Assembly (NCBI RefSeq): GCF_041435195.1 | Contig: NZ_CP108106.1 | Span: 8,848,377 to 8,912,376, forward strand | Source of the DNA: Streptomyces sp. NBC_00224 | Lineage (GTDB): Bacteria > Actinomycetota > Actinomycetes > Streptomycetales > Streptomycetaceae | Direction of reading: 5' to 3' | DNA: 64,000 bases | In this document: piece by piece, positions 26,497 through 64,000 of the stretch | Numbering within the stretch: position 1 is the stretch's first letter | Layout of the letters: each line of letters opens with the position of its first letter | Notes under the pieces: model-generated | Database searches by the model: none | What the model was told of the DNA's origin: nothing | The model's input: only the letters and a program-made list of their open reading frames with translations | Position numbers and translations under genes: made by a program

Positions 26497-26558
26497 CTGG
26501 CCCTAACAAAAGGCCGTTGATCATGTGACTGTTGGCTTGTCGGCTCGTTGGTTTGGTC

Positions 26559-27011
26559 ATGGTGAACCGTCGGTCGCGGCCGTGGGTGGTGTCGGACGAA
26601 CTGTGGTCGCTCGTCGAGCCGTTGCTGCCCGTGCCAGGTCCCAAGCAGGTCGAGGGCAGGCCTCGGGTGCCGGACCGGCAGGCGTTGTGCGGGATCCTTT
26701 TCGTCCTGCACACCGGGATCCAGTGGGAGTACCTGCCCCAGGAGCTGGGTTTCGGTTCGGGCATGACCTGCTGGCGGCGCCTGGCCGCGTGGAACGAGGC
26801 TGGTGTCTGGGACCGTCTGCACGCAGTACTGCTGCGGGAGTTGCGGTCGAAGAACCAGCTGGACTGGTCGCGGGCGGTGATCGATTCCTCCCATGTCCGG
26901 GCGGCTCGGCGGGGCCCAAAAGCGGTCCCAGCCCGGTCGACCGGGCACGGCCGGGCAGTAAACACCACCTCATCGTCGACGGCCAGGGCATCCCGCTCGC
27001 GGTCTCGCTGA
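26559..27011 (+). CDS. IS5-like transposase OrfA
   Basis: The frame starts at ATG 26559 and encodes the N-terminal half of an IS427-type transposase: VVSDELWSLVEPLLP, CGILFVLHTGIQWEYLPQELG, WSRAVIDSSHVRA with the first catalytic Asp. After ARRGPK (about 26918) the frame loses coding character. The sense continues in the -1 frame, so this product is normally fused to OrfB by -1 slippage at CCCAAAAG. Confidence 0.8.
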   Translation: MVNRRSRPWVVSDELWSLVEPLLPVPGPKQVEGRPRVPDRQALCGILFVLHTGIQWEYLPQELGFGSGMTCWRRLAAWNEAGVWDRLHAVLLRELRSKNQLDWSRAVIDSSHVRAARRGPKAVPARSTGHGRAVNTTSSSTARASRSRSR

Positions 27012-27376
27012 CCGGTGGAAATCGCAACGATGTCACGCAGTTGCTGCCCCTGCTCGACAAGATCCCGTCTGTGGCCGGCACGGTCGGACGTCCCCGGCAC
27101 CGGCCCGACATGCTGTTCGCCGACCGCGGCTACGACCACGACAAGTACCGTCGTCTGCTGTGGGCACGCGGCATCCGGCCCGTGATCGCCAGACGAGGTG
27201 AGCCGCACGGCAGCGGCCTGGGTGTTTTCCGCTGGGTCGTTGAGCGCACGATCTCCTGGCTGCACGGCTACCGCCGCCTACGGATCCGCTGGGAACGCCG
27301 CGACGACATCCACGAAGCCTTCCTCAGCCTCGCCGCCTGCCTGATCACCCACCGCCACGTCCAACGCCTTTGTTAG
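26915..27376 (+). CDS. IS5-like transposase OrfB (frameshift part)
   Basis: The -1 frame from the CCCAAAAG slip site to 27376 encodes the catalytic core: GSKHHLIVDGQGIPLAVSLTGGN (about 25 residues in), DRGYDHDKYR with the second Asp, and FRWVVERTISWLHGYRRLRIRWER with the catalytic Glu. There is no good start codon, so it is made as an OrfAB fusion of about 272 residues. Confidence 0.8.
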   Translation, partial: PKSGPSPVDRARPGSKHHLIVDGQGIPLAVSLTGGNRNDVTQLLPLLDKIPSVAGTVGRPRHRPDMLFADRGYDHDKYRRLLWARGIRPVIARRGEPHGSGLGVFRWVVERTISWLHGYRRLRIRWERRDDIHEAFLSLAACLITHRHVQRLC

Positions 27377-28632
27377 CACCTCTTAGTGAGTGCCTGCGCC
27401 GCTCGGCGTTCTCGGCCAAGGCGCAGGGAACGCAGGTCACGTACGCCCCGCTTTACCGGCTGTTCTTCACGTTCCTGTGGCAGCGCGGGCTGGACTGGGA
27501 CGAGGCGTCGGAGGATGACGTCGAGGACTGGGAGGACTGGCGTCGACGAGGGGCGGCGAATCCGGCGCCGGTCGACGGCGGCACGTGGGCGAAGGAGCAG
27601 GCGGCGTTGAAGCTGCTGTACGGCATCGCGGCCCAGCGCGGTCTCGTTCCGTCGAACCCGGTGACGCTCGCCTCGCCGTCGGACGTGAAGACCTCGGACG
27701 TGAAGTGGTTGTCGCCTCGGGCCTTTCGGCTGTGGCGCAACGTCGGGCTCGGTGGCATGCTGCCGGACGGCCTGGAGGACGAGGCGTGGCGCGGTCGGTC
27801 GGCTGGCCGGGATACGGCGTACGCCGACCTGATGTACTCCAGCGGCCTGCGGCGCCGCGAGGGAGGCACCGTGCTGCTCTGCGAGCTCCCGGCGCTTGGG
27901 CGACGGAACTACTACGCGGGGCGGGTGGGCCAGGCCGTGGCCAAGCGGGCCGGCTACACCTTCTACGTCGGTCATCCGGCGCTTCAGCGTGTCGAGGGCT
28001 ACCGGGTGAGCACGCGCGCCTTGGCGGTGGCCCGCGCCCGGCGGCGTGGCGTCTACGACCGGTTGCCCGGCCTGCGCATCATCCAGGGGGTCAGCCGGGC
28101 GGGCCGTGTGCAGTGGAAGGGGCGGGACGGGCGTGCGGGCGAGAGCGCGCTGGGGCGGCTGACGGCCGCTGAGCGGATGCGGTTGTTCGTCGAGGGTGAG
28201 GACGGCTTGGAGCCGGCGATGCTGTGGCTGACCGAGAGCGGGCTGCCGCTGCGGTACACGAGTTGGACGAAGGTCTTCGAGCGGGCGAGCGACCGGTGCG
28301 CGGCCGCGGGGCTCGACGTTTTCGCGACGCCGAAGATGCTGCGGCACTCCATGGCTCTGCGGACGCTGATCGCGCTGCACAACGCGCTGGACCGTCGGCT
28401 CGGGCTGACGCCCGCCGAGCGCCTGCACTACGAGGAGGTGTACGGGCAGGTCTGGCTGATGGTCAAGGACATGCTCGGGCACCGCAGCGAGCAGGTGACG
28501 CGGGACGTGTACCTGGAGCCGGTGCGTGGGCTGCAGCTGGAGTCGCTGCTCGGCGACGACGACAATCCCGTGAACGCGGAGAGGATCGCGGAGCTGGCGG
28601 CCCGTACGGGTCTGATCTTGGACGTGGCGTGA
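27370..28632 (+). CDS. Tyrosine recombinase (first of integrase trio), 5' end lost to IS
   Basis: Native sequence begins at 27383. Translation from the TTG inside the IS end (27370) would give a 420-residue product lacking the first 55 residues. The catalytic domain is complete. SSGLRRREG holds the first Arg, PKMLRHSMALR has the box II Arg and His (with Lys where HxLRH usually has its first His), and MLGHRSEQVTRDVYLEP contains the nucleophile Tyr. An N-terminal SAM-like core-binding domain precedes it. The gene overlaps the next one by GTGA. Members of such trios act together in Tn554-like and RIT elements. Confidence 0.75.
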   Translation: MLAPLSECLRRSAFSAKAQGTQVTYAPLYRLFFTFLWQRGLDWDEASEDDVEDWEDWRRRGAANPAPVDGGTWAKEQAALKLLYGIAAQRGLVPSNPVTLASPSDVKTSDVKWLSPRAFRLWRNVGLGGMLPDGLEDEAWRGRSAGRDTAYADLMYSSGLRRREGGTVLLCELPALGRRNYYAGRVGQAVAKRAGYTFYVGHPALQRVEGYRVSTRALAVARARRRGVYDRLPGLRIIQGVSRAGRVQWKGRDGRAGESALGRLTAAERMRLFVEGEDGLEPAMLWLTESGLPLRYTSWTKVFERASDRCAAAGLDVFATPKMLRHSMALRTLIALHNALDRRLGLTPAERLHYEEVYGQVWLMVKDMLGHRSEQVTRDVYLEPVRGLQLESLLGDDDNPVNAERIAELAARTGLILDVA

Positions 28633-45969: not shown

Positions 45970-46033
45970 TTAGAGGCCCTAACAGAAGTTGTTGATCATG
46001 TGACTTTTGGTTCGGATGGTCGTTGGTCTGGCC

Positions 46034-46486
46034 GTGGGGAAACGTCAGTCGCGGCCTTGGATCGTGTCGGATGAACTGTGGTCGCTCATTGAGCCGTTGC
46101 TTCCGGGTCCGGCGCCGAAACAGGTGGAGGGACGCCCCCGGGTACCGGACCGGCAGGCACTCTGCGGGATCCTGTTCGTGCTGCATACCGGGATCCAGTG
46201 GGAGTACCTGCCGCAGGAGCTGGGGTTCGGATCCGGTATGACCTGCTGGCGGCGCCTGGCAGCGTGGAACGATGCCGGCGTCTGGGACCAACTGCACTTG
46301 GTGCTGCTGAAGAAGCTGCGGGTCGCGAAGAAGCTGGACTGGTCGAGGGCGGTGATCGACTCCTCCCACGTCAGGGCAGCTCGACGGGGCCCAAAAGCGG
46401 TCCCAGCCCGGTCGACCGAGCACGTCCGGGCAGCAAACACCACCTCATCGTCGACGGCCAGGGCATCCCACTCGCCGTCTCGCTGA
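46034..46486 (+). CDS. IS5-like transposase OrfA (copy 2)
   Basis: GTG 46034 aligns with the ATG of copy 1. The product carries IVSDELWSLIEPLLPG, GILFVLHTGIQWEYLPQELG and WSRAVIDSSHVRA. Coding character stops at the CCCAAAAG slip site (46389-46396), after which the -1 frame continues the enzyme. Confidence 0.78.
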   Translation: MGKRQSRPWIVSDELWSLIEPLLPGPAPKQVEGRPRVPDRQALCGILFVLHTGIQWEYLPQELGFGSGMTCWRRLAAWNDAGVWDQLHLVLLKKLRVAKKLDWSRAVIDSSHVRAARRGPKAVPARSTEHVRAANTTSSSTARASHSPSR

Positions 46487-46851
46487 CCGGCGGCAACCGC
46501 AACGACATCACCCAGCTGATACCCCTGCTGAAGAAGATCCCGTCTGTTGCCGGCCTCGTCGGACGGCCACGCAACCGCCCCGACAGCCTGCTCGGCGACC
46601 GCGGCTACGACCACGACAAATACCGCCGTCTCGTCTGGGCAATGGGTGTCAAACCGGTGATCGCCCGCCGCGGCGTCCCGCACGGATCCGGCCTCGGAGT
46701 CCACCGGTGGGTTGTGGAACGGACCATCGCCTGGCTCCACGGCTTCCGCCGACTACGCATCCGCTGGGAACGACGCGACGACATCCACGAAGCCTTCCTC
46801 GGACTCGCCACCTGCCTCATCACCCACCGCCACGTCCAACGCCTTTGTTAG
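46390..46851 (+). CDS. IS5-like transposase OrfB (copy 2, frameshift part)
   Basis: The -1 frame after the slip site encodes HHLIVDGQGIPLAVSLTGGN, GDRGYDHDKYRRLVW and VHRWVVERTIAWLHGFRRL, that is, the second Asp and the Glu of the catalytic triad. It is expressed as an OrfAB fusion through -1 frameshifting, as in copy 1. Confidence 0.78.
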   Translation, partial: PKSGPSPVDRARPGSKHHLIVDGQGIPLAVSLTGGNRNDITQLIPLLKKIPSVAGLVGRPRNRPDSLLGDRGYDHDKYRRLVWAMGVKPVIARRGVPHGSGLGVHRWVVERTIAWLHGFRRLRIRWERRDDIHEAFLGLATCLITHRHVQRLC

Positions 46852-46860
46852 GACCTCTTA

Positions 46861-47032
46861 GCCTGCTCCAGTTCGGCGATGACCTCGACGTGGTAGTCGC
46901 GGCGGTCGAAGCCCCCTCTCGTACGTGCCGCCACGAATGCCTGCCCCGGTGCCAGCGCTGGCACCAAGACGACGCCGGTGCTGCCTCCGGCGCGTTCGCG
47001 ATGGGCAGCGGTTCCTGCGCGGGCCGCCTCAA
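46861..47032 (-). pseudogene. Short frame cut by insertion sequence
   Basis: Immediately after the methyltransferase stop a minus-strand frame reads VLVPALAPGQAFVAARTRGG and then FDRRDYHVEVIAELEQA before running into the IS5-like end at 46857. The sequence looks protein-like but no standard start codon precedes it clearly, and its C-terminus is replaced by three codons from the IS. Probably the 5' part of a small gene truncated by the insertion. Confidence 0.3.
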
Positions 47033-48427
47033 TTACGCCGCCTCCTGCACAGGCTGGCTGTGCGGGGCCGCTGCCCCTGCCACGGTGTCCTGGCCCGTCA
47101 GGGCCTCGACGACCATGCCGACCAGGTCCCGGCCCGCGTTGGAGGTGACGGCGTTGCCGATCATCTCGACCTGCTGCTCGCGCCGTCCGAGGAAGACGAA
47201 GGTGTCGGGGAACTCCATCGCCCGTGCTGCCTCCCGGGCCCGGATCATCCGGTACCGGCACTCCTCCAGGCTGGTGGCGTAGCCGATCAGCCCGTGGCGG
47301 TCGTGGGTGGTGAGGGTGGGCATCGGCTGGGTCACGGGCTGCGCCGTGCTGTTGCCGTAGTACGGCAGGAGCTCGTGGGAGGCCGGATCGGCGTAGACGA
47401 CGCCGTGGTTGATGCCACCGGCGGTCAGCGTGGACATTGGCTCGCTGGCCCGGCGGTGCGTGGAGCCGCCGCCGTGCAGCTCGACCATGTACGGCTCGAT
47501 GAAGGCACCTGGGCCGTGCACCCGCTGGTACCTGTCCCACCCTGCGCTGATCTTCCGCATGGTGTTGGGCGCCAGAGGCCTGAGCCGCTCCCCGAGCATC
47601 TGGGCGGGAAGGGTGAGGTCCAGGGCCTCGATCGCGCCGCGCACGGGCGGTTCGACCACCTGGTTGCGGCAGGTGACGTGGGGACAGCGGTAGAGATACT
47701 GGCCCGTCTTGACGCCGTAGACGCCCCAGGGGCGCTCCGGGCTGCACACCCGCGTCCGTTTGAAGGACTGCATCAGATGGACACGGCCGTGCGCGGGGCA
47801 GATCCCGTAGGGGCGCAACCACTTGTCGAAGTCGGGCGCGCGGTCGCCCTGGCGCCAGAAGACGACATACATCCGCGGGCGGCGGGAGCGGGAGCCGGGA
47901 CCGGCGGCCTGGGCATGGGCGGAGTCCAGGTAGACGATCCGGTACAGGTACGGGCCCCACAGGGCGACGCTGCGCACCCAGGTGTCGAACGCGAACCCCG
48001 GAGCATCTGCGGGTCCCCACCAGCGGGCGTCGGGCACGTTCTCGACGATGATCGCCCGGTAGCGGTGGTGCTCGGCGAAGCGGGCGACGTCGTGCATGGT
48101 GGCCCGTGAGCGGATGGCGGCTTCGTCCGTGCCGTCGGTGGCGAACAGCCCGTCGTTGAACTCCCCGTAGCAGCGCTTTTTGCCCCGGGCCCGGGTGTGG
48201 TGGGTGCATTCCGGTGACGCCCACAGGATGTCGGTGCGCGGGTACTTGGCCGGGACGACCTGGGAAATGTCGGCGCAGTCGTGGTCGGTGTGCGGATGGT
48301 TGTGCTGGTGGGTGTCGATGGCGTGCCGGGCATGGTTGGCCGCCATCCGCACGCGGACGCCGTCAATCAGCTCGGCCCCGAGAGTGGAGCCACCGGCGCC
48401 GCAGAACAAGTCGGTCACGGTGATCAC
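47033..48427 (-). CDS. C5-cytosine DNA methyltransferase
   Basis: A 464-residue enzyme. Motif I is VTDLFCGAGGSTLGAE at the N-terminus. Motif IV is ILWASPECTHH with the nucleophile Cys in SPEC rather than PPC. Motif VI is AIIVENV. A target-recognition stretch lies between about 190 and 370, and motif X-like EQQVEMIGNAVTSNAG is near the end. I prefer GTG 48427 (AGCAGGAAC upstream, and motif I begins at once) to TTG 48448. No restriction enzyme gene is adjacent, so it is probably a solitary methylase protecting or marking the plasmid. Confidence 0.85.
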   Translation of the reverse strand: MITVTDLFCGAGGSTLGAELIDGVRVRMAANHARHAIDTHQHNHPHTDHDCADISQVVPAKYPRTDILWASPECTHHTRARGKKRCYGEFNDGLFATDGTDEAAIRSRATMHDVARFAEHHRYRAIIVENVPDARWWGPADAPGFAFDTWVRSVALWGPYLYRIVYLDSAHAQAAGPGSRSRRPRMYVVFWRQGDRAPDFDKWLRPYGICPAHGRVHLMQSFKRTRVCSPERPWGVYGVKTGQYLYRCPHVTCRNQVVEPPVRGAIEALDLTLPAQMLGERLRPLAPNTMRKISAGWDRYQRVHGPGAFIEPYMVELHGGGSTHRRASEPMSTLTAGGINHGVVYADPASHELLPYYGNSTAQPVTQPMPTLTTHDRHGLIGYATSLEECRYRMIRAREAARAMEFPDTFVFLGRREQQVEMIGNAVTSNAGRDLVGMVVEALTGQDTVAGAAAPHSQPVQEAA

Positions 48428-48467: not shown

Positions 48468-49691
48468 TCAGGGCAGCTGGAGCTGCGCGCCGGAGCCCGA
48501 AAGCAGGGCGTCCCACGCCTTGTCGAAGCCGCCGTCCTGCTTGTCGATCACGTGGGCCGGGGCGGTGCAGAACAGTTCCTCGGCCATCGGCCAGCCGTCT
48601 TGGCGGGGGCGGACCCAGGCCCGGGCGCGCCCGTAGAGCCGGTCGTGCTCGACGTCGACGCGGTGCCGCTGGGAGAGGGAGGTCAGTCGCCGGGCGAGTA
48701 GCTGGGGGTGGCCGAGGTCGACGCGTTCGGTGGAGCGCATCACGGGGCGGCGTCGGCCGTCGGCGGTCAGCAGGAACAGGCGGCGCACGTGGTAGAGCGC
48801 CCAGGGCGTGTCGAGTTCGCGTGCGAAGGCCTCCAGGCAGGCCCGGTCCCGTAGCTGGGAGGGGTCCAGCATGTCCAGGAGGCTGCCGGTCCTGCCGTAG
48901 AGCGTGGCGTTGGGGTTGAGGCTCATCGCGGTGTACTCCAGGCGCAGCACCTGTCCGGCGATGTCCGGGTGGGTGCGCATGCGCTCCAGGTGGGCGGGCA
49001 GCGCGCCCATGGAGACGGGGAAGCAGCAGAAGGTGCAGTACGACTTGGGCCAGTGGACGCCGAACCGCAGGTGGAGGTAGTCCTCGACCTCGCGCCTGCC
49101 CCAGCCCCATTCGATGAGCGGGAACACCCCGGTGCGGCCCGGGATCTTCGAGTGAGTGGTGTCATTCAAGAGGCGGCCCGGCTCGTCGGCGTTGAAGCCC
49201 AGGATCTGCCGGAAGGGGCGGCCGCCGAAGACCCGGCCGAGCCACAGGTCACCGACCTCGCCCTTGGCCCGGAGGCTGCACTTGCGCGCCCCGGCCTGCT
49301 GGGGAACGGTGCCGACGGACTCCATCTCCTCCCACAGCGTCCACGCTCCACGGGCGTGGAGCTGCTCAGGGTGGCGGCAGTCGTCCAGCACGGTGATCCC
49401 GTCCGCCTTGAGATGTCTGTTGCGGGCCAGCTGGACGAACCGCACGCGGTGCTGGCGCAGCAGTGGGAGCATGAACTCCGTACACAGCAGCCGGGTTTCG
49501 GGCCACTCGCTGCCCGTGGCCATGTAGAGGACGGCGGTGCGCTGGAGGTCGATGCCGTGGGCGGCGGGGTCGGTGAGCATGCGGGCGAGGTAGGCGGTGG
49601 AGTCGGCGCCGAGCCCCCAGTTGATGACGGTGTCCAGGTCGTCGTCGGCGGTCAGGCCGGGCAGGAAGAGGCTGTACGCGGTGCTTGGCAT
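48468..49691 (-). CDS. PAPS-reductase-like PP-loop protein, divergent
   Basis: A 407-residue protein, ATG 49691 after AAGGAG. The PP-loop is altered: VINWGLGADSTAYLARML replaces the usual SGGxDS core (Gly-Ala-Asp-Ser). Further blocks are LYMATGSEWPET, ARKCSLRAKGEVGDLW and SYCTFCCFPVSMGAL, whose cysteines could bind a metal cluster. Similar proteins occur in actinobacterial plasmids and phages with unknown roles. It sits 41 bases upstream of the DNA methyltransferase on the same strand, so a DNA-modification link is possible but not shown. Confidence 0.7.
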   Translation of the reverse strand: MPSTAYSLFLPGLTADDDLDTVINWGLGADSTAYLARMLTDPAAHGIDLQRTAVLYMATGSEWPETRLLCTEFMLPLLRQHRVRFVQLARNRHLKADGITVLDDCRHPEQLHARGAWTLWEEMESVGTVPQQAGARKCSLRAKGEVGDLWLGRVFGGRPFRQILGFNADEPGRLLNDTTHSKIPGRTGVFPLIEWGWGRREVEDYLHLRFGVHWPKSYCTFCCFPVSMGALPAHLERMRTHPDIAGQVLRLEYTAMSLNPNATLYGRTGSLLDMLDPSQLRDRACLEAFARELDTPWALYHVRRLFLLTADGRRRPVMRSTERVDLGHPQLLARRLTSLSQRHRVDVEHDRLYGRARAWVRPRQDGWPMAEELFCTAPAHVIDKQDGGFDKAWDALLSGSGAQLQLP

Positions 49692-53623: not shown

Positions 53624-55096
53624 TCAGGCGGCGGCGGTCCGGTGGCTGGTGAGGGCCTGCTGCTCGACCTCGGAGAGCTGGTAGCTGCCGTTGTCGGCCT
53701 GACCGAGGGATTCCAGGAGCAGCAGGTAGCGGGCCTGGGGTGCGGTGAGGGACGACCATGCCTTGGGCTCGCGGATGTCGTACTCGCACGCCGCCGCGAC
53801 GTGGGCGAACACAGCGTTCACCAGGCGTGCCTTGGGCAGGTGCACCGCCGTCTCGGCGAGGTCGGCCTTGGGCTCCTTGACTCCCAGGAAGCGTGCGACG
53901 GTCTCGGTCTCCCGTTTGTCGGCCCAGGAGCTGTAGAAGCCGGGGAGGGTGAGCAGGATGTTCTGGGCGAACACCCGGGCCGCGTCCGGCAGGGCCTTCA
54001 TGCGCACGAGCCGGGTGATGAACTGCTGACGCGGCCCGGCGGCGGCCTTCCACGCCCGGTTGCACGAGATGACCCTGCGGCGTTCCTCGGCCTTGTGCTC
54101 GTCCGCCTCGGTCCGGGGTTTCTTGGGCTGCGGGCGGACTTTGTGGCCGTAGGCGGCCGGGTCGGCGCAGTGCCACACGGGCCGGTGCTCGTCGTCCAGG
54201 CGGGCGCTGTGGCCGGGGCAGTTGCGGTGGTTGTCCTCGGTGAGCGGGTTGCCCAGCCCGGTGGTGAGCTCCGCCAGGGGGCGCGAGGGGTCTTTCTCGT
54301 AGGACGGCACCCGGCCCAGCAGCGGGATGTTGGCCTCCTTGAGCTCCTCCTCGGCCTTGGCGCGGGTCTGGGCGTCGGCCTGCTCGGCGCGCAGCAGCGC
54401 CACCTCCTGGTCCCAGTGGCCGCGACCGCCGCCCCCCTCGTCCTGGTCGCGCTGGAGTGCCCGCATCAGCCGGTTCTCCGCGCCGCGCACGGGTTCGACC
54501 TCGGCGAGCTGGGCGGTCTGCTCCAGGTCCATGCCTGCGGCCGCCGTACGGCGCAGGGTCGCGTCGTTGAGTGCTTGGGCGACCTTGGCCTGCCGGACGG
54601 CGTTACGGCTGACGCGCAGGGCCTTGGTGGCCCGGCGCTGGTCCACCTCGCTCATGTCGATCAGGGAGAGTTCCTGGGCCCGCAGGGTGTCACGCTCGCT
54701 CATGCCCTCGCGGTGGTCGTTCTCCACCAGGGACAGGAACCGCGTCCAGCCGTCGCGGCCGACCAGGTCCTCGCGTACGTAGGCCCTGATGGGGCGGGCG
54801 GGGCGGGTGTCCTGTGCGGCGGTCGCATTGGCGGCCTGCGCGGCCTGGGCGCGCCGCCAGCCCTTGAAGACGCTGTAGGTCCCGTCGGGCCGGGGCCGGA
54901 CGCTGACGGGCTCTTCCACGCCGAGTTCCTTGACCGAGGCGATGAGCTTGTCGTCCGGCTCGGTGTCGGTCTCGCGCGCGTTGCACTCGTCACGCACCAG
55001 CAGCGCCGGGTCGAGGAGGACGAACTGCCGGACGTCTTCCTCGTGTTCGACGTGCTCTTTGGTGGGGTTGGTGGGGGTCAGGACGGCGGTAGCCAT
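53624..55096 (-). CDS. parB: ParB-like partition protein
   Basis: A 490-residue protein. The ParB N-terminal nuclease/CTPase-type domain spans about 30-135 (LIASVKELGVEEPVSVRPR, FKGWRRAQAA, FLSLVENDHREGMSERD). The helix-turn-helix follows (DMSEVDQRRATKALRVSRNAVRQA, about 145-170). A coiled-coil stretch, a Cys/His pair (CPGHS...WHCADP) and a long C-terminal domain make it larger than chromosomal ParB, as is usual for plasmid forms. No parA is seen in the window. Promoter P2 lies 64 bases upstream. It should bind centromere-like sites to keep the plasmid stable, or act as a regulator. Confidence 0.75.
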   Translation of the reverse strand: MATAVLTPTNPTKEHVEHEEDVRQFVLLDPALLVRDECNARETDTEPDDKLIASVKELGVEEPVSVRPRPDGTYSVFKGWRRAQAAQAANATAAQDTRPARPIRAYVREDLVGRDGWTRFLSLVENDHREGMSERDTLRAQELSLIDMSEVDQRRATKALRVSRNAVRQAKVAQALNDATLRRTAAAGMDLEQTAQLAEVEPVRGAENRLMRALQRDQDEGGGGRGHWDQEVALLRAEQADAQTRAKAEEELKEANIPLLGRVPSYEKDPSRPLAELTTGLGNPLTEDNHRNCPGHSARLDDEHRPVWHCADPAAYGHKVRPQPKKPRTEADEHKAEERRRVISCNRAWKAAAGPRQQFITRLVRMKALPDAARVFAQNILLTLPGFYSSWADKRETETVARFLGVKEPKADLAETAVHLPKARLVNAVFAHVAAACEYDIREPKAWSSLTAPQARYLLLLESLGQADNGSYQLSEVEQQALTSHRTAAA

Positions 55097-59687: not shown

Positions 59688-59797
59688 ACCGACTCCCGCG
59701 ATTCGGGGCGTGCCTGGGCTCGCCGACGGCGGATGCCGTCGCGCTGCTCGGTGCGCGTGCGGTAGCCGTACACGGTGATGGTGGGCCTGTCAGCCAC
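59684..59797 (-). CDS. 37-aa basic protein
   Basis: GTG 59797 stands five bases after GAGGAGG, a strong ribosome site, and the frame encodes VADRPTITVYGYRTRTEQRDG followed by an Arg-rich tail. Both ends overlap neighbouring genes by a few bases. Very short but well placed for translation; role unknown. Confidence 0.5.
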   Translation of the reverse strand: MADRPTITVYGYRTRTEQRDGIRRRRAQARPESRESV

Positions 59798-60293
59798 GGT
59801 CCTCCTCCTCTTCTGAGGCGGTGAACTGGGGCAAGAGCGGTGCGTCGTAGACCTCTCGCCACACGGCGGGAGCGCCGGGGCAGGGGATGACGGCTTTTTT
59901 GAGCTCGGCCGTGTCGATGGGGTGCAGCCACCCGTTCTCGATGGTCCAGCCGCACGCAAGGGGGCGGGGGTCAGCGGCGGTGGTGGCCACCAGGACGGCG
60001 CTGCGGACGGTGCTGCCCTCCAGCGCGAACACGAGCAGGATGCGCAGGGCGTAGAAGGCTTCGTCGTCCAGCACCGCAAGGCGCACCGGGATGTCATCGG
60101 TGCAGAGATTGCCGATGGACAGGTCGACGTGACCCCGCAGGAACGCCCCGTCAGTTCGTTCGGCCACGAGACTGATTTGGTGTTCGCCGTCACCCAGGGC
60201 CAGAACCAGAGCGGCGAGCGCGGTCAGGGACCGTTCCATTGCGGCCGCCGCGGCGGCGTCGTCGGGACGGGTGAGTTCCGGGCGTGCGGGCAT
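59790..60293 (-). CDS. Hypothetical protein
   Basis: A 167-residue protein, ATG 60293 after AAGGAGG. SLTALAALVLALGDGEHQISLV, FLRGHVDLSIGNLCTDDIPVRLAVLDDEAFYALRILLVF and ACGWTIENGWLHPID give an alternating beta/alpha pattern. The end is acidic (SEEEEDRG). No family is recognised. It lies 291 bases from the DUF932-like gene; a hairpin cluster fills part of that gap. Confidence 0.55.
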   Translation of the reverse strand: MPARPELTRPDDAAAAAAMERSLTALAALVLALGDGEHQISLVAERTDGAFLRGHVDLSIGNLCTDDIPVRLAVLDDEAFYALRILLVFALEGSTVRSAVLVATTAADPRPLACGWTIENGWLHPIDTAELKKAVIPCPGAPAVWREVYDAPLLPQFTASEEEEDRG

Positions 60294-60380
60294 GCTGGTC
60301 CTCCTTGTGAAGGGACGGGCGGTGAGCACCGGGGGCGGTGGGCCGCGCCCGTGGGGCGGTGGAGTCTTCCGGGCGCGCGC

Positions 60381-60472
60381 TCTGCTCCGCAGACGGGTTG
60401 CGCTGCCGCTACGCGGCAGGGGACGGGGGCGCGCTCCGCGCTCTCAGGAAGGGGCGGGGAGCGCTCCGCGCT
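60381..60472. repeat. Mini-hairpin cluster with GNA loops on minus strand
   Basis: Four short perfect hairpins: TCTGC-TCC-GCAGA (60381-60393), CTGCCGC-TAC-GCGGCAG (60403-60419), GCGC-TCC-GCGC (60431-60441) and AGCGC-TCC-GCGCT (60460-60472). On the minus strand, which is the coding strand here, the loops read GGA, GTA, GGA and GGA. This is the same three-base GNA loop rule as in the array at the right end of the window, but in opposite orientation. They lie between two leftward genes. Confidence 0.65.
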
Positions 60473-60584
60473 GGGCGCCGGCCGGTGCCCGCCCGGACGC
60501 CTGGGGCGCCCCGACCGGTGCGGGGCGGACTATAGGCCCGTGCGGGCCGGGCTGGGGGAGGTGCCCGGCCCGCACGGGGGTCTG

Positions 60585-61763
60585 TCAGCCGTGGGCGGCG
60601 GCCGCCGTGAGCGCGGGCAGTGCGAGCGCTTCCAGGGCGGCTGCCTGGTCGGCGTCGGTAAGGGTCTGTGCGGTCGACGTGATGGCCTGCATCACGCCCC
60701 CGGCCGTGACCTGACCGCCCCGGATGAAGTGGGCAAGGATCCTGTCCTTGGCCTCAGCACCGATGCTGAGCGACTTGGTGACGTGCTCGATCGTCTTCGT
60801 CGGCTCGGCCAGCGGTTTCCCGGCCGCATCCTCCATTCCCCGGACCTTGGCCTCGACGTACTCCCGCGACAGGAAGGTGCGCACGGCGTCGGCGGTCTTG
60901 GATGTGATCAGTTCCAGCGTCTTGCGCTGAGTCTGGCCGGACCAGGACACGACGCCTTCGTCCTGCTTGCCTCCCAGGTGCACGGCGCGCATCACGTCCT
61001 GCGTCATGGTCAGACCGTTGCGGCATACCTGGATCACCGCGCGCGGCGTGATGGTGTACGCCCCGGAACCGACCTCACTGTTGGTGATCACGAAACCGGC
61101 CGAGACCACCGGCAGCTGGTCACCACTGCGCTCGTCGAACGGGGAGCGGTAGCCGCGCAGCAACTCGCGGGCCTGGACGGCGACCGCTTCGGACTCGACG
61201 CGCACGTACATGCGCCGGTCCGTCAGATCGCAGCCGGTGATGCGGGTCGGGTGGCCGGACTGCTGGACCCCGTCCAGCGCGGCGAGCAGCATGTCGAGGT
61301 TGTCCATCCGCTTGTAGCTGTCGGACAGCAGCGCGCGGGCCACTCCCTCACTGGGCGCCATGCCGGGGCCATTGTCGCCCCGGAACGCACGGAGCATGTA
61401 ACGGCGGTCCGGCTCCTCACGCAGCCACGTGTTCACGTTCTCGTCCAGCAGCGGGACGTTCTCGGTACGCATGCGGCGCAGGTAGGCGAGCGGGATGCGG
61501 AGCTTGTCCGCGATCCCCTCGTCCGCCACGGCGGTGGGCCGGTAGATCCCGTCGACGTCCGTCACACCGTCCTCGGTGATCAGGGACTCGATGCCGTCGA
61601 CGTGAACGTTGCCCTCACGGAACCGCAGCGCGGACCCGGACACGATCACGTCCAGCTTGCGCCGGTTCTGGTCCTCCAGGATCCGGACCAGATCGCCCGT
61701 GTCGGCGTTGCGGGCGCCCATGGGAGCCACGCTCATAGCGCGCTCGGCGAACTGCTGAGTCAT
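60585..61763 (-). CDS. DUF932-like plasmid/phage protein
   Basis: A 392-residue protein, ATG 61763, 70 bases after promoter P6. The order LRIPLAYLRRM, SDSYKRMDNLDMLLAAL, GFVITNSEVGSGAYTITPRAVIQVCRNGL and the C-terminal helical region match DUF932 (phage/plasmid TIGR03299-like) proteins. Their function is not established; they are frequent in conjugative elements of actinobacteria and proteobacteria. Assignment is from remembered sequence features. Confidence 0.7.
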   Translation of the reverse strand: MTQQFAERAMSVAPMGARNADTGDLVRILEDQNRRKLDVIVSGSALRFREGNVHVDGIESLITEDGVTDVDGIYRPTAVADEGIADKLRIPLAYLRRMRTENVPLLDENVNTWLREEPDRRYMLRAFRGDNGPGMAPSEGVARALLSDSYKRMDNLDMLLAALDGVQQSGHPTRITGCDLTDRRMYVRVESEAVAVQARELLRGYRSPFDERSGDQLPVVSAGFVITNSEVGSGAYTITPRAVIQVCRNGLTMTQDVMRAVHLGGKQDEGVVSWSGQTQRKTLELITSKTADAVRTFLSREYVEAKVRGMEDAAGKPLAEPTKTIEHVTKSLSIGAEAKDRILAHFIRGGQVTAGGVMQAITSTAQTLTDADQAAALEALALPALTAAAAHG

Positions 61764-61831
61764 GCGGTGTTCTCCCCTTCGTGTTGGCTTCTGCGGTGCG
61801 GGGCCCGGGGTCACCGGCCCCCGCACAAATC

Positions 61832-61880
61832 CAATAATAGTGTGTTGCAGGGGTGGGTAAACCCACCCCTGACCAGCACA
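61832..61880 (-). promoter_or_regulatory. Promoter P6
   Basis: Minus strand: TTTACC, 16 bases, TATTAT with ACACAC before the -10. The -35 lies inside a perfect palindrome with 10-base arms (AGGGGTGGGT/ACCCACCCCT), the best operator-like copy of the set. Confidence 0.75.
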
Positions 61881-61881
61881 C

Positions 61882-62406
61882 TCAGACCGGGATGCGGTGA
61901 ACGGGCAATGGCGTCAAGCTCGAACGACGCACCGACCCCACCACCGGCACGGGCACACCCCCGAGTACATCGACCTCCTCGCACAGGTCGTACCGCAACT
62001 CCGGCACACCTCCGTACGGGTCTGCGTACGTGTGGATCGCGCACACCCAGTACGTGCCGTGACAACGCCTCACGCTGCCGTGATAGTCCACCTGCTGCCA
62101 CAGCGTGGGCCCTTCGGACTGCCGAACACCCACCCGCCCCGACCTCAGCCGCCGGAAGGCACGCCGTACGCTCTCCTGGTCGACCGGGACACCCGCCACT
62201 GCCGGGGCGGTGTGCCCCGTACGCACTGCCGACGCCCAACCGAGCACGAAAAGCGGCAGGATCGCGTCGAACTGCTCCAACGGCACCCGCAGCGTCCCCG
62301 GAACACCCCGGCTGCGCGCCCACTCCCGTAGTGCGTGCTCAGCCTGCTCGGCCTCGTCCTGCGTCACCGGCTCGCCGGTGCGGTCGATCACCTGGCTCTC
62401 TTCCAT
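61882..62406 (-). CDS. Hypothetical protein
   Basis: A 174-residue protein, ATG 62406 after GAGGGA. The N-terminal 60 residues are helical and acidic (QDEAEQAEHALREWARSRG). The C-terminal part is beta-rich with repeated aromatic pairs (WQQVDYHGSV, GTYWVCAIHTYADPYGG). No family is recognised. Confidence 0.55.
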   Translation of the reverse strand: MEESQVIDRTGEPVTQDEAEQAEHALREWARSRGVPGTLRVPLEQFDAILPLFVLGWASAVRTGHTAPAVAGVPVDQESVRRAFRRLRSGRVGVRQSEGPTLWQQVDYHGSVRRCHGTYWVCAIHTYADPYGGVPELRYDLCEEVDVLGGVPVPVVGSVRRSSLTPLPVHRIPV

Positions 62407-62483
62407 GATCCCTCTTCCCTCCAACAGGGAGCCCGGAAAGGCGAAATCGTTCCGGGCCCCACTCCGCCGTGGTGGCTGACCGG

Positions 62484-62849
62484 TCAGAAGATGGAGACGA
62501 TGAACTCCGACCAGTGGTAATGCTCGAAGAACGCCAGCGGAACCAGCGCGAAGATCCCCGCCAACAGGTAGTCGTCGACCTTGGACCACGTCCGGTAGGC
62601 CGCGTGCCCCATGCTCTTGCGCCACGTGATGTCCACCGCGATCTCACACCCCAGAGCACTCGGATGGAACTCACGATGGATCCGCCCCAACTTCCCCCCA
62701 GGGCGCGACACGTGGACGTGGTGGGTCCCATCGGCCCGCTGAGAGATCCGCTCGAACTTCCACGCCTGTCCGGCCGCCGCCCCCGCCTGTCCACGAAGGG
62801 TCCGGCCCGCCGGGATTTCCTCGCCGGTCACACACGACACGAGCTTCAT
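62484..62849 (-). CDS. Hypothetical protein with C-terminal hydrophobic end
   Basis: A 121-residue protein from ATG 62849. It begins MKLVSCVTGEEIPAGRTLRG, continues as a beta-rich domain (HHVHVSRPGGKLGRIHREFHP), and ends with two hydrophobic stretches (DDYLLAGIFALVPLAFF and FIVSIF) that could touch the membrane. Unknown function. Confidence 0.55.
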   Translation of the reverse strand: MKLVSCVTGEEIPAGRTLRGQAGAAAGQAWKFERISQRADGTHHVHVSRPGGKLGRIHREFHPSALGCEIAVDITWRKSMGHAAYRTWSKVDDYLLAGIFALVPLAFFEHYHWSEFIVSIF

Positions 62850-62937
62850 GATCAGTCCCCTTTCCGATCACGGTGCGTGGAGCCCCCCGGGGCTCGAACA
62901 GCAAGGTCTTCCAAACCCCGGGGGAGAATGCTTGCGC

Positions 62938-63309
62938 CTACTTCAGGAACCCGCGAGAGGTGAGGAATTCAGCCGTAATGTGCGCGACCCCACGCGGCTT
63001 GTAGATCTGCGGGAACCGCCGCATCTCCACTTCGGTGCGCCCAATGGCGTCGGGCTCCGGCAGCTGGTGAACGAGCCGGTAGGGACGGTCGCCGGTCGGC
63101 ATTTCGAGCACGACCGCACCCGCCGTGGTTTCGAACCGAATTCCGGTGTAATTCGCGTCGGCGTTGTGCACGATGCTCGCTCCTGCCCGCTGGCAGATCA
63201 GGGGCAGGAAGTTCGCGATCGTGCGGGCCTGAATGGCCGGGCCGGTCATCGGAGCATCCGTACCGCCCTTCACCCGGCGGACGATTCCGTCAGAGATCTT
63301 GATCTCCAC
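62938..63309 (-). CDS. Hypothetical protein, first of the right-end block
   Basis: A 123-residue protein from GTG 63309 after AAGGGGAAG, 58 bases from promoter P7. VEIKISDGIVRRVKGG, QARTIANFLPLICQRAGA and TGIRFETTAGAVVLEMP describe a small alpha/beta fold. No family is recognised. It is the outermost gene of the leftward block. Confidence 0.55.
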   Translation of the reverse strand: MEIKISDGIVRRVKGGTDAPMTGPAIQARTIANFLPLICQRAGASIVHNADANYTGIRFETTAGAVVLEMPTGDRPYRLVHQLPEPDAIGRTEVEMRRFPQIYKPRGVAHITAEFLTSRGFLK

Positions 63310-63364
63310 GTCTTCCCCTTCGATGGACTTCTGCGGCCCAGGGGGTCGCCTCCCCCAGGACTTC

Positions 63365-63405
63365 ATATAATAGTGTGTCTTGCTTCTTGGGGACCCCCCT
63401 GCGTA
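63365..63405 (-). promoter_or_regulatory. Promoter P7
   Basis: Minus strand: GTCCCC, 16 bases, TATTAT with ACACAC before the -10. GGGG-T-CCCC forms a short palindrome over the -35. It is the last promoter of the series and lies about 470 bases from the hairpin array. Confidence 0.6.
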
Positions 63406-63682
63406 ATCCCCTGCGCTATCCCCTGAACGATCTCCTGACCTCGCCAGACCACCCACCTACGATTGCCCCAGGTCAGAAGCCCATTCACCCGTGGTTGGGG
63501 TGCTGACATCCCCTCTGCTGCCGCTCTCCCTGCCCGAATGAGAGAAAAGGGTGGGGCGGGCATGGGCTGCGCGGCGGCCTCGGGGATCGGGGCGGGCTTC
63601 GTGGGTTTGCGCGTCGGCAGAGCCTCCGCGCGGCCGTTGGCGTGGCCCACAGGGCCACGGGAGGGGGCATGGAGGTAGCCGC

Positions 63683-63769: not shown

Positions 63770-63800
63770 ATCACACGTTTTTGACGGATCATCAAAAACG
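63712..63800. repeat. AT-rich segment with two inverted repeats
   Basis: TTTGGT-TG-ACCAAA (63712-63725) and CGTTTTTGA/TCAAAAACG (63776-63800, 7-base spacer) are perfect inverted repeats. They lie in a segment noticeably richer in A and T than the rest of the window, just inside the GNA hairpin array. Such AT-rich dyads are common at replication origins and regulator sites. Confidence 0.5.
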
Positions 63801-63848
63801 CAGAGGGAGCCGGAAAACGGCCCGCCCCTAACCCCCCAGCCAGACAAA

Positions 63849-63982
63849 GGAATTCGCGGAGCGAATTCCGCAGGCCGAATTGCGGAGCAATTCGTGCCGC
63901 TGCCAACGGAGTTGGCAGCAATTCCGGCGAAGCCGGAATTAGCCGCGCGGAGCGCGGCATCTTTCCCGCCGCGTAGCGGCGG
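63849..63982. repeat. Six consecutive hairpins with GNA loops (telomere-like)
   Basis: Perfect stem-loops follow one another almost without gaps. 63849-63869: 9-base stem, loop GGA. 63876-63894: 8 bases, GGA. 63899-63919: 9 bases, GGA. 63920-63940: 9 bases, GAA. 63942-63958: 7 bases, GGA. 63966-63982: 7 bases, GTA. All stems differ in sequence, so structure, not sequence, is conserved. DNA hairpins closed by GNA triloops are unusually stable. Rows of them are known from the 3' ends of Streptomyces linear chromosomes and plasmids. The window ends 18 bases later, so whether this is the replicon end cannot be seen. Confidence 0.85.
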
Positions 63983-64000
63983 CGCGTCGTGTCTGCGTAG

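Follow-up and report, generated by a model that had tools for sequence, protein, structure and literature searches.

A Sg2247-class telomere at the right end of the Streptomyces sp. NBC_00224 chromosome, with TapL-TpgL as a candidate pair for copying such ends

That the palindromes of Streptomyces telomeres obey a GNA loop rule, with closure by a sheared G-A pair, is already known, and the Tap/Tpg mechanism has been described (PMC7205883, PMC4513846, in the parts available to us). Telomeres of Sg2247 type, found in S. griseus 2247, S. rimosus ATCC 10970, S. albidoflavus J1074 and pSCAT, usually have the loops GGA, GAA and GTA; pSCAT and pSHJG1 are both listed under this type (PMC8743542). In the accessible text of that paper the end-patching system of the class ‘remains elusive’, and a passage of PMC3937824 has the telomere proteins of S. 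albus J1074 as ‘yet to be identified’. Our search of the open-access literature, preprints excluded, found no protein pair named for the class. In a Streptomyces population, telomeres and their proteins were seen to be swapped between replicons (excerpts of PMC7205883).

The window, by which we mean the whole 64,000-nt stretch of Streptomyces sp. NBC_00224 DNA analysed (C1:8848377-8912376), ends in a row of hairpins that the first-pass annotation had proposed as a linear-plasmid telomere. C1 is a linear chromosome of 8,912,376 bp, and with these window coordinates base 64000 is its final nucleotide. An assembly end at this point and an inverted copy at the other end had been set as a check beforehand, and both were found: the contig stops exactly at base 64000, and the first 64,002 bp of C1 are the window inverted, at 99.995% identity. 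Counting inwards, the first mismatch of this terminal inverted repeat falls on base 12; identity persists at 80 kb and at some 120-122 kb, and at 200 kb the repeat is gone. The contig end together with the inverted copy therefore makes the array a chromosome telomere, which for practical purposes is certain; the annotation was right about a telomere but not about its replicon, and a plasmid telomere is ruled out, contig C1 being the chromosome. Neither finding that the annotation had named as contrary evidence turned up: no circular assembly with coding sequence running on past the array, and not the many internal copies, those in this genome being few and partial. A phage origin of the terminal segment was likewise rejected, the telomere having no match among 50,697 phage records.

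The other replicons of the strain carry related sequence at both ends (C2, 220,250 bp) or at the right end only (C3, 49,574 bp). At its left, C3 ends in an array of CRISPR repeats rather than in a telomere, and its rightmost 1.7 kb matches the right end of C2 at 96.7% identity; this contig may be incomplete. Within the chromosome, besides the inverted pseudo-telomere of Table 1, we noted another short internal telomere-like fragment at C1:8513100-8513134. The terminal repeat also contains two copies of a 0.9-kb stretch, about 83% alike, at 26499-27386 and 45975-46861 of the window, and genes for a C5 cytosine methylase (47033-48427), a PAPS-reductase-like protein (48468-49691) and a ParB-like protein (53624-55096), which have the look of plasmid or phage cargo close to the end of the chromosome.

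Table 1. Coordinates of the telomere, its surroundings and the candidate protein genes (window positions unless prefixed with a contig)
Feature	Position	Strand	Remarks
Subtelomeric gene block, with gaps	59749..63631	.	common to linear plasmids ending in other telomere types
Internal telomere-like fragment (pseudo-telomere), inverted	60385..60441	-	79% to terminus; equals C1:8908761-8908817
Flanking inverted repeat	63641..63659		
Flanking inverted repeat, not conserved in class	63776..63800	+	9-nt arms, 7-nt spacer
Telomere module	63781..64000	+	common to right ends of C2 and C3 (77%)
Hairpin VI (innermost of six)	63849..63869	+	9-bp stem, GGA loop; both-side changes in 4/9 pairs
Hairpin V	63876..63894	+	8-bp stem, GGA loop; both-side changes in 3/8 pairs
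Hairpin IV	63899..63919	+	9-bp stem, GGA loop; both-side changes in 4/9 pairs
Hairpin III	63920..63940	+	9-bp stem, GAA loop; both-side changes in 7/9 pairs
Hairpin II	63942..63958	+	7-bp stem, GGA loop; both-side changes in 4/7 pairs, 100% paired
Hairpin I, most conserved	63966..63982	+	7-bp stem, GTA loop; both-side changes in 1/7 pairs, 100% paired
Truncated terminal (seventh) hairpin	63991..64000	+	5' arm GTCTGC, loop GTA, one G of 3' arm
TapL (P0004)	C2:64101-65702		533 aa; Tap-like
TpgL (P0005)	C2:65704-66273		189 aa; Tpg-sized, directly after TapL

Six perfect GNA-triloop hairpins had been claimed in the first pass, and all six are present and perfect within the 134 nt of 63849-63982. 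Such an array is far above chance expectation: when the last 152 nt were shuffled 2000 times with dinucleotides preserved, triloop stems of at least 6 pairs numbered none in 1733 cases, one in 248, two in 18 and three in a single case. The fold z-score of these 152 nt was -8.3 (200 shuffles, DNA parameters). Stems of this kind occur 51 times window-wide, nine of them with a GNA loop, which is the loop of all six in the array against three of 45 elsewhere. Judging from related ends, the stem of the seventh hairpin is cut off by the assembly end. Both of the inverted repeats that the annotation had cited as flanking support exist; as a class feature, however, they were rejected, arms of at least 9 nt being found in just two of 15 related ends, the window included.

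Conservation of the fold was examined in an alignment of 12 of 14 ends, the left end of C2 and G205 being left out because both disturb the alignment at hairpin III. Pairing was kept in 93.7% of alignment cells (75.5% for hairpin III, where there are alignment gaps), and changes on both sides were seen at 23 of the 49 stem pairs, a count reached by none of 500 shuffles and to be compared with 2 to 8 in slid controls. The covariation score was 0.270 vs. 0.117 in shuffles; 22 of the 500 attained the observed value in one of the five covariation measures, that for further pair types. These compensatory changes support the view that the stems are kept for single-strand folding, in agreement with the selection on the folded (3') strand that had been proposed from the hairpins of the window. 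A loop census of triloops with stems of at least 5 in the 14 related ends gave 55 GGA, 14 GTA, 6 GAA and 3 others, with no GCA.

Searched against a plasmid collection, the telomere matched 48 records, in 10 of which the match spanned 80% or more of its 152 nt; pSCAT was 78.4% identical over all 152 nt and pSHJG1 94.3% over 35 nt. By this similarity we assign the NBC_00224 chromosome end to the published Sg2247 class as a new member; it is not the new type that a divergent telomere would have been, given its match to pSCAT. We give a probability of roughly 85% to the reading that the array is the right telomere of the chromosome, of Sg2247 class, with the TapL-TpgL pair described below as the end-copying pair of the class.

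A 92.6-kb S. melanogenes plasmid with an Sg2247-class telomere has three adjacent genes, of 110, 512 and 189 aa, annotated as XRE, helix-turn-helix and transcriptional regulator, and the same gene order is found on C2 of NBC_00224. Our terminal-protein search of the NBC_00224 genome covered Tap, Tpg, TapL and TpgL. The search for tap/tpg-like genes that the first-pass annotation had called for yielded a TapL-TpgL pair, whose only copy found in the genome is on plasmid C2. The model of archetypal tpg (NF047541), which passes its cut-off in 283 of the 392 genus genomes, had no match in the NBC_00224 genome, and we rejected archetypal Tap/Tpg as the system of this strain, Tpg being absent. Public records file both genes of the pair as ‘transcriptional regulator’ or ‘helix-turn-helix’ proteins, so that TapL-TpgL would be missed by annotation.

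The Tap model NF047542 matches TapL below its 600-bit cut-off (75.7 bits for the S. melanogenes copy). The N-terminal HTH of TapL is 45% identical to that of archetypal Tap over 86 columns. Similarity of the C-terminal half to Tap is weak: in a set of ten Tap sequences (from 12 fetched loci, two of which gave no Tap frame) eight were over the inclusion threshold, and pairwise scores exceeded 100 shuffles for eight of the ten; this half aligns collinearly with Tap, with a D-x-N-x-A motif and D, N and K residues in common. A family-B-polymerase-like palm in TapL was considered and set aside, there being no family or solved-structure match and an AlphaFold mean pLDDT of 53; the model is poor as a whole and best at residues 21-80, which are the HTH. 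Between HTH and C-terminal half lies a Cys/His cluster (P0004 residues 112-147) in which C123, C126, H140 and C146 are invariant; locally well modelled, it is possibly a zinc-binding module. TpgL aligns with Tpg, whose Thr114 is the nucleotide-accepting (priming) residue, in the HTH region only (best E 1.2e-5 among 12 sequences; hhalign probability 7.5%). TapL lay directly upstream of TpgL in 28 of the 38 loci examined.

Two further occurrences may be recorded here. In genome G350, both C1 and C2 have a TpgL-like frame beginning 30 nt inside their ends (bases 30-557 and mirror copies). According to the accessible part of PMC7205883, an RLB1-9 plasmid, called pRLB1-9.1 there, lacks any Tap/Tpg homologue, whereas the record of linear pRLB1-9.2 (L147) holds TapL, 64.5% to P0002, and then a TpgL-sized gene; inspection of that record's end by eye showed no hairpin row, and this end was therefore left out of the comparisons.

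Telomere DNA was matched in 57 of the 392 genus genomes (42 at E ≤ 1e-6) and TpgL in 164, strongly in 87. Among the 42 telomere genomes TpgL was present in 41 and strong in 36. With 164 and 87 of 392 as the reference, Fisher tests gave P = 3e-16 and 7e-21, values that overstate independence because the genomes are related. The main control is the contrast with archetypal Tpg, whose strong matches (E < 1e-26, standing in for the cut-off) were found in 10 of the 42 telomere genomes vs. 273 of the 350 others. An exact scan of the genome collection for the terminal motif gave 46 stretches, all titled Streptomyces, of which 39 were used for co-occurrence, the other seven being, by title, second stretches of the same organisms. 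TpgL was found in 39 of these 39 motif genomes, at no less than 61% identity in 38 and at 52% in one, and TapL also in 39 of 39; the motif genomes overlap in species with the 392, and the genus-wide base rate is for TpgL only. All ten plasmid records whose match spans 80% or more of the telomere have TpgL on the same record, and among the matches listed at least eight of the ten have TapL. For plasmid records with any telomere match, at least 35 of 48 carry TapL or TpgL among the matches listed, the carrier lists holding 60 of 153 and 60 of 263 records and 13 of the 48 being in neither listed set. Two genomes break the pattern: in G240 a telomere match (E 3e-7) stands without TpgL, and G259 combines a strong telomere (4e-37) with weak TpgL (7e-31) and strong archetypal Tpg. 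The record of pSHJG1, a published class member, was examined alone, and no TapL was found on it.

The principal alternative is that the Sg2247-class telomere is patched by other proteins, for instance relatives of S. griseus GtpB-GtpA, and that TapL-TpgL merely travels with the same plasmids. It draws on the 45 of 87 genomes in which strong TpgL is found without a detected telomere, and on a TpgL branch, about 47% identical, that is frequent in S. griseus-group strains; a search with a member of this branch gave strains of that group, among which S. griseus 13350, the source of GtpA, was not identified. Ten closed genomes of the former kind were inspected: three have related G[GAT]A ends (G208, G353 and G109), one ends in GCA hairpins (G151), two end in CTTG hairpins (G386 and G193) and four show no hairpin row at their ends. 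Set against it are the linkage, on the same record for ten of ten plasmids and at the level of the genome in 39 of 39 motif genomes, and the retention in TapL of Tap's HTH and of C-terminal residues collinear with Tap, a conservation not required of a passenger. We judge this alternative unlikely, and retain TapL-TpgL as the pair that probably copies Sg2247-class ends, on the basis of correlation and distant homology.

Further alternatives concern the end itself. In 45 of the 46 motif stretches the terminal motif lies no more than 110 nt from the stretch end; ten of the 46 stop at one identical base, 15 nt past the motif, and none stops 16 to 26 nt past it. Some tails past the motif are longer, and at least two of these are presumably sequencing adapters by their look. 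The motif block was the contig's last in 25 of 25 stretches checked; most other stretches start a block, and for these a contig-first position was inferred. At the complete end of a relative (L030) the last base is paired in the terminal hairpin of the fold. The window stops 3 nt past the motif, and its assembled end should therefore be 12 nt short of the natural terminus, which is predicted from related ends to finish in GAGCAGACCGCGCGC and to complete the cut seventh hairpin. Near 970-1000 of a Streptomyces sennicomposti contig (L102), two telomeres of Sg2247 class stand head to head inside the contig, which reflects either a replicon fusion or an assembly artefact.

That the array is an archetypal Streptomyces telomere whose end has worn off is very improbable. 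The general plan of packed palindromes with GNA loops is the same, but the loops here are GGA, GAA and GTA where archetypal ends have mostly GCA, the terminus GAGCAGACCGCGCGC takes the place of the archetypal 13-nt palindrome I, whose absence had been correctly noticed in the first pass, and the genome is without archetypal Tpg. We give next to no credence to an internal element at a contig break (an integron-like site, or the transfer origin or single-strand initiation site raised as alternatives by the annotation), despite the few partial internal copies, because the motif sits at replicon ends: the array forms the very end of a closed contig whose opposite end carries it inverted, and 45 of 46 independent motif occurrences are at a stretch end, ten at one identical base.

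For the Sg2247-class telomere with TapL-TpgL we propose the following mechanism, carried over, apart from the naming of the two proteins, from established work on how Streptomyces ends are replicated. Replication forks would leave the 3' strand overhanging by some 300 nt, and the overhang would fold into the hairpin row, its GNA loops closing by a sheared G-A pair. A telomere-associated protein would bind the folded strand and hold a terminal protein at the 3' end; synthesis would start on the terminal protein, which would stay on the 5' end as a cap. TapL and TpgL, distantly Tap-like and Tpg-like and encoded in one operon, are the candidates for these two roles in the class. Linearity of the chromosome would then depend on C2, because the only TapL-TpgL copy found is on that plasmid. 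In its widest form, to which we lean with less confidence, the proposal would have TapL-TpgL as the missing Sg2247 end-patching system, spread by linear plasmids, with a single plasmid operon keeping an 8.9-Mb chromosome linear and telomeres being interchangeable modules of about 150-370 nt, comparable in length to the 3' overhang, set onto one subtelomeric block. A co-distributed candidate pair makes the stated open question on Sg2247 end proteins testable and, if the proposal is true, predicts which strains lose chromosome linearity on plasmid curing; a case of such loss is that of S. clavuligerus pSCL4 (PMC8743545, as far as its accessible text goes).

The subtelomeric block, in whose partly scanned gene content we found a DUF932-type gene (60585-61826), matches the subterminal DNA of three linear plasmids piecewise, at 73-88% identity. 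The S. anthocyanicus plasmid CP109573 ends in archetypal-like GCA-loop hairpins, and CP108988 and CP107763 end in CTTG-loop hairpins; therefore three types of telomere are found on one block, each in a different strain or strains. Similarity to C2 and C3 starts only at 63781, and the junction of block and telomere module in the window falls between 63631 and 63781. We regard a block capped by different telomeres as a sign of telomere exchange; that the pattern reflects exchange within the overhang is speculation.

These features may be set against those of the described systems, as far as the accessible parts of the cited papers allow. With the exchange of PMC7205883 our case would share the swapping of telomeres and proteins between replicons, and differs in the finding of a single subtelomeric block under three types of telomere. 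With the archetypal telomere it would share a 3' overhang and palindromes closed by G-A sheared loops (PMC4513846, PMC3572947), and differs in stem sequences and terminal motif. Like archetypal Tap/Tpg, the candidate pair has tap-then-tpg operon order, a second protein close in size to the Tpg of about 185 aa and the N-terminal HTH of Tap (PMC4513846, PMC3572947); unlike it, the pair occurs in a genome without archetypal Tpg, and the likeness of TpgL to Tpg is confined to the HTH. In being a non-archetypal Tap/Tpg-like pair for GNA-loop telomeres, TapL-TpgL would resemble GtpB-GtpA of S. griseus 13350 (PMC7205883). The closest relation is to the Sg2247-type ends, which fit as many as eight stem-loops into 150 nt, with GGA, GAA and GTA loops and greatest conservation at the 3' end, as here; the differences are a new strain and replicon, an assembled end 12 nt short and, relative to the literature on the class, a candidate protein pair that can now be named.
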